The notes under the pieces: model-generated | What the model was told of the DNA's origin: nothing | What the model saw: only the letters and a program-made list of their open reading frames with translations | Databases searched by the model: none | Source: Bacteroidota bacterium | GTDB lineage: Bacteria; Bacteroidota; Bacteroidia; Chitinophagales; Chitinophagaceae | Direction: 5' to 3' | DNA: 64,000 nucleotides | Assembly: GCA_947456625.1 (NCBI GenBank) | Contig: CANGQJ010000002.1 | Location: forward strand, 62,001-126,000 | Program-made: the position numbers and the translations under genes | Shown: positions 1,901 to 40,701 of the stretch, in pieces | How positions within the stretch are numbered: the first letter of the stretch is position 1 | Layout: each line of letters opens with the position of its first letter

Positions 1901-2791
1901 TTAATGATGTCCATAATTTTTTTCTCCAGCCTCAATATTTAGTGCTAAACGGTTTTGTTTAGGGGGCAAAGGACAGGTAGCATAAGCTGTAAAAGCGCAA
2001 GGTGGATTATACGCTTTATTAAAGTCAATAACTGTATTCCCCTCCTTGTCAGGCTTTGGAATATCTAAAAACCTTCCAGCACCATAAGTAGTTACACCAG
2101 AACTTTGATCCGCAAAAACTAAAAATAAATTAGAACCGCCTTCATCTATTACATCCAAAGTATAGGTTTGACCATTTTTCTGAAATTCTAATTTACCCGC
2201 ATTTTTAGTGGGCGTAGTTTGACCAAGTACGTTTGTAATCATTAAATAATCCTGTGCTGGCTGAACTAGTTTAGCATTCACTTTCCAATTTTCAGTTATT
2301 GGGAATCTTTCAATTCCTTTAAATTCTAATAAAGTTTTAGCTTTTAAATTTCTAAATCTAACACCCACTTTATCTTCTCTTTTGATTATAACCCAGGAAA
2401 ATGGACCATAATCCATTACCGCCTCTTTGGTATTGGGTCCAAAAACAGCATATTTACTATTTTGTTGGGTGACTTTTTTATTTATAGTAATATTAAAGTT
2501 TTTATTATTTTCCCATAATACCGAATCCCCTTTAAAATCAAATCTACCAAGGGTATCAGGAAATTTAGTATTGGCATAATGACAATCCAAATTATTTGCA
2601 CTTCCAAAATAGTTCACTCCTGTATGTAACCAAAATAAGCCTTCTAAATTTAACCAACCATTGTCTTGCTTTAAACTTTGTATTCTTTTAGCATGCCATT
2701 GATTAATACTATCCGCATATTTTAAATTTTGGGAAAAAAGGGGACTAAAAAATGCAGTTAATAATAAACTTAATAAGATTGTTTTTTTCAT
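1901..2791 (-). CDS. Exported DUF1684 domain protein
   Basis: The protein has 296 residues with a Sec signal peptide (MKKTILLSLLLTAFFSPLFSQ). The mature part carries the DUF1684 pattern: an N-terminal WHAKRIQSLKQDNGWLNLEG and a C-terminal FNKAYNPPCAFTAYATCPLPP near residue 270. The family is widespread in Bacteroidota and its biochemical function is not known to me. The conserved CAFTAYATCPLPP segment suggests a binding or catalytic site. The gene has a textbook Bacteroidota promoter at 2821-2851 and is the first gene of a probable two-gene operon with the dehydrogenase. Confidence 0.85.
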   Translation of the reverse strand: MKKTILLSLLLTAFFSPLFSQNLKYADSINQWHAKRIQSLKQDNGWLNLEGLFWLHTGVNYFGSANNLDCHYANTKFPDTLGRFDFKGDSVLWENNKNFNITINKKVTQQNSKYAVFGPNTKEAVMDYGPFSWVIIKREDKVGVRFRNLKAKTLLEFKGIERFPITENWKVNAKLVQPAQDYLMITNVLGQTTPTKNAGKLEFQKNGQTYTLDVIDEGGSNLFLVFADQSSGVTTYGAGRFLDIPKPDKEGNTVIDFNKAYNPPCAFTAYATCPLPPKQNRLALNIEAGEKNYGHH

Positions 2792-40194: not shown

Positions 40195-40231
40195 AGTATA
40201 ATAATAAAAGGGCAGTATAGAAATACCGCCC
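40195..40231 (-). terminator. Intrinsic terminator of the tRNA unit
   Basis: On the minus strand GGGCGGTAT and ATACTGCCC form a 9-bp stem including one G-T pair, with a TTCT loop followed by TTTTATTATTAT. It lies 33 nt after the tRNA CCA end. Confidence 0.8.
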
Positions 40232-40263
40232 GACTTAACGATTGCTTGCCTATATATATGATC

Positions 40264-40337
40264 TGGCTGTCATAGATGGGATCGAACCATCGTTAAGGGT
40301 TTTGCTGACCCTTGCCTCTCCACTCGGCCACATGACA
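40264..40337 (-). tRNA. Atypical tRNA with GCA (Cys) anticodon and A33
   Basis: The 74-nt cloverleaf includes an encoded CCA. It has acceptor TGTCATG/TATGACA (seven pairs with one G-T), D arm GCC/GGC with the GAGTGG loop, anticodon stem AGGGT/ACCCT with loop CAGCAAA, a 4-nt variable region, and T arm GATGG/CCATC with loop TTCGATC. The anticodon reads GCA (Cys). Three features are abnormal: position 33 is A instead of the near-universal U, the discriminator is G instead of the U expected for Cys, and the D arm looks like that of Ser or Leu tRNAs although the variable arm is short. It may be a non-translating tRNA, a decayed copy, or a Cys tRNA variant. Confidence 0.75.
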
Positions 40338-40344
40338 ATATCTG

Positions 40345-40360
40345 GCTAAGTTTCCTTAGC
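40345..40360 (-). other. GAAA-tetraloop hairpin just upstream of the tRNA
   Basis: GCTAAG-GAAA-CTTAGC is a perfect 6-bp stem capped by a GNRA tetraloop, followed by CCAGATA and then the tRNA 5' end seven nucleotides later. It may guide 5' processing or stabilise the transcript. Confidence 0.55.
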
Positions 40361-40417
40361 GTTAATTAGTTTTATTTGAATTTGGATAATTAAATGCATC
40401 TTTTCTTTTTTTTGACT

Positions 40418-40490
40418 TTGTCCGCATCGTTTTACCACCGCGGAGTAAGCCGCTCTCGGTTGGCACCCATTCAAGGATTCTTGATGACAA
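40418..40490 (-). ncRNA. Structured leader RNA upstream of the tRNA
   Basis: On the minus strand, right after a -7 box, TTGTC (40490-40486) can pair with GACAA (40422-40418) to close a domain. Inside it are a 5-bp hairpin (TCAAG-AATC-CTTGA) and a hairpin GCGG-CTTACT-CCGC extended by ACC/GGT across a GAGA bulge. I do not recognise it as a known riboswitch, ribozyme, 6S, SRP, RNase P or tmRNA. Between 40361 and 40417 is an A-rich linker with no visible structure. The leader and the tRNA appear to form one transcript of about 290 nt. Confidence 0.5.
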
Positions 40491-40492
40491 CA

Positions 40493-40500
40493 CAAATATA
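40493..40500 (-). promoter_or_regulatory. -7 promoter element TATATTTG of the tRNA unit
   Basis: This exact TAnnTTTG on the minus strand places the transcription start near 40488, at the first base of the structured leader. No TTTG is seen at -33. Confidence 0.6.
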
Positions 40501-40701
40501 GTATTTTATTTCATATTGTCTACCATTTTTATAGACTTATTAATTAATTATTTCAGATTGAATATATAATATTGTATATCAATACTTTACATATTAAACA
40601 AATGTGCTTTTATTTGAAAAAAATTTTTAAACATACTAGCTTATCTTATAAAACGTTATAAGCTTGGCCAGCCCAGTTACATTATATTGTATATAGAAAT
40701 C
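40501..40701. other. AT-rich intergenic region upstream of the DUF481 gene
   Basis: This part of the 564-bp gene-free stretch between the thioredoxin gene and the DUF481 gene holds no coding frame that I can support. The only structure is the inverted repeat at 40645-40662. The remainder of the gene-free stretch is the tRNA unit and the 18-bp palindrome. Confidence 0.6.
40645..40662. promoter_or_regulatory. Inverted repeat upstream of the DUF481 gene
   Basis: CTTATAA-AACG-TTATAAG has 7-bp perfect arms and lies 40 bp upstream of the DUF481 start, where an operator would be placed. No T run follows. Confidence 0.4.

Follow-up and report, generated by a model that had tools for sequence, protein, structure and literature searches.

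The tRNA gene at positions 40337 to 40264 of the minus strand of the window (the whole 64,000-nucleotide stretch of Bacteroidota DNA analysed here) was found to belong to a family of additional, second tRNA-Cys genes, termed tRNA-Cys2, which extends across many genera of the Chitinophagaceae. The association of this family with a sulfur regulon is well supported, and the family, its regulon and its conservation pattern were all established by computation. On balance, we favour the reading that tRNA-Cys2 is a duplicated tRNA-Cys recruited into a regulon of sulfur or cysteine limitation, where it acts as a tRNA-shaped RNA outside elongation. The gene and its surrounding elements are listed below.

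40518..40537, minus strand: palindromic operator/promoter site AGTCTATAAAAATGGTAGAC, which fits the pattern without a mismatch and overlaps the expected -33 region
40493..40500, minus strand: Bacteroidetes-type -7 box TATATTTG (TAnnTTTG), from reading of the sequence
40398..40492, minus strand: SAM-I/IV riboswitch aptamer (RF01725), 45.6 bits against a gathering score of 41.1, E 5.1e-06
40338..40397, minus strand: leader linker of 60 nt from riboswitch to tRNA, not conserved among relatives
40267..40337, minus strand: tRNA-Cys2 cloverleaf, with GCA at 40303-40305, A33 at 40306, U1-A72, and G73 at 40267; the fold is backed by compensatory changes in the family
40264..40266, minus strand: encoded CCA, of which the first C alone is kept among relatives
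40239..40250, minus strand: trailer motif GGCAAGCAATCG, conserved in tRNA-Cys2 trailers
40203..40231, minus strand: intrinsic terminator GGGCGGTATTTCTATACTGCCC followed by TTTTATT, from reading of the sequence; its hairpin (helix 5) covaries across the family

The GCA anticodon, A33 and G73 reported by the first-pass annotation were confirmed by direct reading, and both ARAGORN and Rfam RF00005 (48.6 bits, E 3.8e-09) place a tRNA at 40337..40264/40267. Its acceptor stem is TGTCATG/TATGACA, its D stem GCC/GGC, its anticodon arm AGGGT-CAGCAAA-ACCCT (C32 A33 G34 C35 A36 A37 A38) and its T arm GATGG-TTCGATC-CCATC; the geometry is 7/5 with a variable region of 4 nt. The molecule has the GCA cloverleaf of an elongator tRNA-Cys and lacks both U33 and U73; it is a conserved RNA of tRNA shape whose features do not fit normal translation, as would be expected of a pseudo-tRNA of the tRNA-Other type. 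In its genome (an assembly of 2.24 Mb, 89.6% complete) it has the lowest RF00005 score among the 30 tRNAs at gathering level. Whether a normal tRNA-Cys is also encoded had been singled out as the key question: a canonical gene with U33 and U73 was found at C1:111532-111602, so that the lack of one is ruled out. This canonical tRNA also carries the GTGGCCGAGTGG..AGGC D arm which had been described as Ser/Leu-like, and that arm is therefore not Ser/Leu-specific. The downstream neighbour of the window tRNA is a gene for a thioredoxin-like protein, and the upstream neighbour is divergent. A MicX match to Rfam in the window lay under the cut-off and is due to chance, and a plasmid search yielded nothing beyond short matches at chance level.

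The same tRNA was present in seven clade copies (the window, L121, L122 and L282-L285), with an identity of 90-99% (mean 94.7%) in the tRNA and of approximately 60% in the 150 nt upstream. All seven carry A33, which rules out a sequencing error at base 33 and removes the two refutations earlier envisaged, a base error and an absence of homologues in relatives. Position 73 is G in these copies except for A73 in L285. The three bases that follow read CCA, CTC, CAG, CTG, CTT, CTC and CTT, and the encoded CCA, to which meaning had been attached, is thus not kept beyond C74. These data also bear on the notion of a functionless, decaying tRNA-Cys duplicate. Although the loss of U33 and U73, the lowest RF00005 score in the genome and one family member with a deleted anticodon (L146) would fit decay, the tRNA is near-identical in seven genomes with diverged flanks, compensatory changes occur in all helices, operator and terminator are conserved, and GCA is invariant. 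We consider decay extremely improbable, and together with base error it is excluded for practical purposes.

The extent of the family was determined by a DNA search in 150 genomes of the bacterial family followed by a covariance model (R1) in 399; in the 76 stretches fetched, 66 tRNA-Cys2 matches and 6 canonical ones were classified. Outside the bacterial family, the best R1 score in 395 sampled genomes of the class was 92.3 bits, within the ordinary tRNA-Cys range; as no outside genome exceeded it, strong-scoring tRNA-Cys2 is known here from this family only, and low-scoring members elsewhere could escape the R1 search. No published description of the tRNA-Cys2 family was found in the open-access literature. 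Every helix of the cloverleaf and terminator covaries, with 96.7% of cells paired and a score of 0.459 vs 0.171 for shuffled alignments. One copy (L146:1667-1788) has a deleted anticodon loop and keeps operator and trailer, and three loci (L132, L140 and L171) have an operon with two tRNA-Cys2 genes, one close to its start and the other last.

The 65 distinct, well-parsed tRNA-Cys2 sequences fall into 24 with U73 and 41 without. In the former, U33 is found in 23/24 and the 1-72 pair is often A.G; some (L123, L173, L127, L130 and L160) are fully canonical. Since members with U73 could be ordinary tRNAs, a single function for the whole family is not required. In the 41 copies devoid of U73, base 33 is distributed uniformly (G12/C11/U9/A9; chi-square p 0.88), A, C and G having taken the place of U33 in several genera, while GCA, G2-C71 and C74 are each present in 41/41; base 73 is G in 35/41, position 1 is A in 34/41, and most copies have A-U or U-A at 1-72. 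The association of U33 with U73 is strong (Fisher p 2.5e-9), a value that is overstated because the sequences share ancestry and the counts are not independent events. The determinants of bacterial CysRS are U73, G2-C71, C3-G70 and GCA (PMC9976931), and an A1:U72 pair is reported to escape recognition by ordinary CysRS (PMC7609411). A base 33 that is free beside an invariant GCA when U73 is missing, and kept as U when U73 is present, suggests that the U73-less class, which includes the window gene, probably does not decode. Set against the known Cys determinants, the same alignment pattern leads us to infer that the requirements of a GCA-reading protein were kept in this class and those of charging and of the ribosome were lost. 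An earlier suggestion that the molecule might be poorly or differently charged and serve outside translation would agree with the loss of U73 and G1-C72, the free base 33 and the invariant GCA; that of unusual codon reading found no support.

Two explanations that retain a role in translation were weighed against this pattern. In one, tRNA-Cys2 is a low-efficiency tRNA-Cys reading UGY, made only under sulfur limitation, which slows or tunes the translation of Cys codons. The retention of GCA and A37, the usable appearance of members with U73 and U33, and an expression apparently tied to the sulfur regulon are all in its favour, but base 33 is spread over four bases in the U73-less copies, 16/73 aligned matches lack pairing at 31-39, on the edge of the loop, and U73 and G1-C72 are gone; we judge it rather unlikely. 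The other is a regulated mis-acylation, in which a different synthetase charges the tRNA by means of G73 and A1-U72, and under cysteine scarcity a non-Cys residue is inserted at Cys codons. The prevalence of G73 (35/41) and of A-U or U-A at 1-72 is indeed more in line with a consistent new acceptor end than with random drift. The loss of U33, however, argues against efficient decoding, and a motif scan of the fetched loci detected no CysRS-like synthetase gene beside tRNA-Cys2; its single KMSKS match was not CysRS-like in appearance. Mis-acylation is accordingly given little credence here.

A link to sulfur metabolism emerged from the upstream regions. tRNA-Cys2 genes sit behind the palindrome AGTCTATNAATTTGGTAGACT or end operons that start with AGTCTATNAATTTGGTAGACT. 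The window operator scores 26.3 of 32.5, lies 200 nt 5' of the tRNA and recurs in related loci; 0.1 matches would be expected in the window at up to 3 mismatches. It is followed by the TAnnTTTG motif, which is the consensus of the Bacteroidetes -7 box. With at most 1 mismatch, the pattern was found at 14 sites in 61 genomes, and its reversed control at none. An upstream operator scoring at least 15 was present in 55/66 tRNA-Cys2 loci vs 0/6 canonical tRNA-Cys loci, and in 49/60 after removal of six loci picked by the operator itself. The matrix was trained on some of the tRNA-Cys2 sites and on none of the CysD/CysH loci. Across 23 CysD/CysH loci, 16 operator sites were found, vs a permuted mean of 0.2 and a maximum of 2. 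At L120 the operator lies between siroheme-synthase/TauE and sulfite-reductase genes. The operator is thus shared with sulfate-assimilation genes, as in a sulfur (Rrf2/CymR-like) regulon. In operons behind it, a final tRNA-Cys2 follows a CarboxypepD_reg protein and an FA_hydroxylase (L110), a TonB receptor (L113) or PhyH and an SDR (L114), and at L116 the order is operator, tRNA-Cys2 and an FGE-sulfatase-like gene. A candidate regulator, a CymR-like Rrf2 gene, was present in 29/29 genomes searched and adjoins tRNA-Cys2 operons in G078 and G175; its product may be the protein that acts at the operator.

CysD/CysH (PF01507) was not found in the window genome (G000), G375 or G266, in which respect the other 23 genomes tested differ. 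The clade may therefore depend on reduced sulfur, and the data suggest that sulfate assimilation was lost from these three small genomes with the riboswitch-tRNA arrangement. A second sulfur-type operator with 2 mismatches and a -7 box occurs at 2842-2861 of the window (minus strand), preceding an ORF for a 296-aa secreted protein (1901..2791, minus strand).

Between promoter and tRNA, the window and three relatives carry an RNA element. The window aptamer is above the gathering score of RF01725; an orthologue in L080/L121 scores 48.7 bits, and the core pattern is present in G375, G266 and L283. The riboswitch and the same tRNA thus occur together in two genomes of the genus, G375 (L121) and G266 (L122), as well as in the public record L283. 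In L282, L284 and L285 the tRNA and the operator are present; L282 and L284 retain apparent riboswitch remnants only and L285 has none, so that the riboswitch is not essential. The aptamer is a member of RF01725, a family listed as a cis-regulatory riboswitch (PMC2864571); here its downstream gene is a tRNA. A tRNA downstream of a SAM-I/IV riboswitch was not found in the literature searched. We know of no precedent for such an arrangement.

No conserved expression platform was found among the clade leaders, and a small hairpin in the linker (GCTAAGgaaaCTTAGC) occurs in the window and not in the relatives. Pairing between the 5' strand of the aptamer and the 3' acceptor strand of the tRNA was predicted at ~66% in the window, 32% in L122 and 1% in L121. 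One hypothesis, based on folding predictions, is that SAM could control the folding or maturation of the tRNA. Elsewhere in the genus, similar aptamers are located upstream of protein genes, among them (L246, L247 and L251) ORFs of 87-208 aa that are not obvious methionine genes, and one in another genus (L057) precedes metK; a fast first-look search of whole genomes for RF01725 overlooked even the window copy, and its negative outcome carries no weight. In L094 and L095, from two same-genus genomes, the leader from operator to tRNA-Cys2 contains a terminator-like hairpin with T's after it, which may be an attenuator. The operator and the SAM-I/IV riboswitch lend strength to the regulatory role that the first-pass annotation had mentioned among its possibilities.

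Most tRNA-Cys2 copies end in GGCAAGCAATCG and a terminator. As a signature specific to tRNA-Cys2 the trailer was ruled out: most of 20 genomes carry several copies of GGCAAGCAATCG with a GTTTCTAC-loop terminator (reversed pattern, 0), and this family-wide 3' module, for which no Rfam family was found, also stands at the end of small-protein mRNAs and of stand-alone RNA-like genes. Since it is a shared module, a trailer RNA may be a further product of tRNA-Cys2. An alternative is that the tRNA part is mainly a processing and 3'-end tag, and that cleavage by RNase P/RNase Z parts the operon mRNA from the trailer, which with its terminator would be the functional small RNA. The wide use of the module, the position of many tRNA-Cys2 genes at operon ends, the retention of C74, fold and processing signals, and the copy without an anticodon that keeps operator and trailer (L146) are all compatible with it. 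A tag needs no GCA, however, which is present in 41/41 of the U73-less copies while neighbouring loop bases drift, and L113, L114, L179 and L181-L184 have no trailer; we therefore hold this alternative to be unlikely, if worth keeping in view.

Several further observations concern the trailer. Across the bacterial family, many transcripts end in TTTTCATATGGCAAGCAATCGTTAGAGG with a GTTTCTAC-loop terminator, those of stand-alone genes with AGCAATCGAAGAGG repeats inside among them (module loci L186, L191-L193, L195, L196, L199, L202, L203, L205-L208, L210, L211, L214 and L215); the TTTTCATATGGCAAGCAATCGTTAGAGG module is possibly an sRNA family or an RNA-chaperone site. Two to three successive trailer/terminator units follow the tRNA in L110, L112, L135, L136, L139, L141, L142, L145, L147 and L152, and in most of these the first unit carries TTGCATCGGTTCAA. 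A 9-nt complementarity between trailer and tRNA (ATCGTTAAG/CTTAACGAT) is not conserved in relatives and was attributed to chance.

Known systems resemble tRNA-Cys2 in part. Staphylococcus aureus has non-translational tRNA-Gly, duplicate isoacceptors for cell-wall synthesis which are charged and feed Fem ligases. The proposed tRNA-Cys2 would likewise be a duplicate isoacceptor outside translation; unlike the case of tRNA-Gly, the tRNA-Cys2 operons examined yielded no ligase that uses aminoacyl-tRNA. Biosynthesis dependent on aminoacylation, another role considered earlier, is unlikely in the window clade in the form of a peptide aminoacyl-tRNA ligase (PEARL), as PF04738 (LanB-type ligase) had 0 matches in G000, G375 and G266, three of those that bear the riboswitch; it is present in 6/20 tRNA-Cys2 genomes. 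The selC* tRNA-Cys (Mukai et al. 2017), as far as its review describes it, is also a second, divergent tRNA-Cys, with A1:U72 in some, but it keeps U73 and has an 8/4 acceptor branch and a long variable arm, and some carry UCA with a dedicated CysRS* (PMC7609411). The window tRNA has neither the 8/4 branch nor the long arm; in tRNA-Cys2 the geometry is a normal 7/5, the variable region is 4 nt long, and the fetched loci show no adjacent CysRS. The nearest precedent is the Bacillus cereus pseudo-tRNA tRNA-Other, which, in the part of the report drawn on here, keeps its Trp anticodon, is poorly charged, stays off polysomes and has a regulatory or stress phenotype (PMC3399842). By analogy, tRNA-Cys2 resembles it in kind, as a tRNA-shaped molecule that keeps its own anticodon, and not in regulon, anticodon or context: tRNA-Other belongs to a different amino-acid family and organism and flanks a genomic island, and that part of the report makes no mention of a sulfur operator, a SAM riboswitch or a conserved trailer (PMC3399842).

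Our favoured reading, a recruited tRNA-Cys acting outside elongation, can be phrased as a mechanism. In the window clade, tRNA-Cys2 would be transcribed from a promoter overlapped by the regulon palindrome; the transcript would pass the SAM-I/IV riboswitch in the window and three relatives, and end in the shared trailer and terminator. The product would be a matured tRNA-shaped RNA that most likely takes no part in protein elongation, having lost U73 (the main CysRS discriminator), the strong G1-C72 and U33, and kept the GCA anticodon, the elements of the L-shape and C74. It would be made when sulfur or SAM is low, and may bind a protein that reads the GCA loop, with CysRS the obvious candidate, without being efficiently charged. 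Formation of Cys-tRNA would then be lowered and cysteine spared, or tRNA-Cys2 may be a related regulatory ligand. The specific version of this, a tRNA-Cys-derived decoy induced by sulfur starvation that competes for CysRS and rations cysteine, gated by a SAM riboswitch in one clade, is put forward tentatively; the conservation of G73 and A1-U72 could instead point to another synthetase and not to a decoy that cannot be charged.

If correct, this would be a tRNA gene whose control is specific to a nutrient and comes from the regulon for the same amino acid that its anticodon names, and in one clade a tRNA-like gene controlled by a riboswitch. The natural alignment sets apart, in many sequences, the retained recognition of the anticodon from the lost U-turn and discriminator, and thereby offers a ready-made experiment on what non-translational tRNAs still need. 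tRNA-Cys2 also provides a specific candidate, open to experimental test, for a sulfur-sparing RNA in Bacteroidota.
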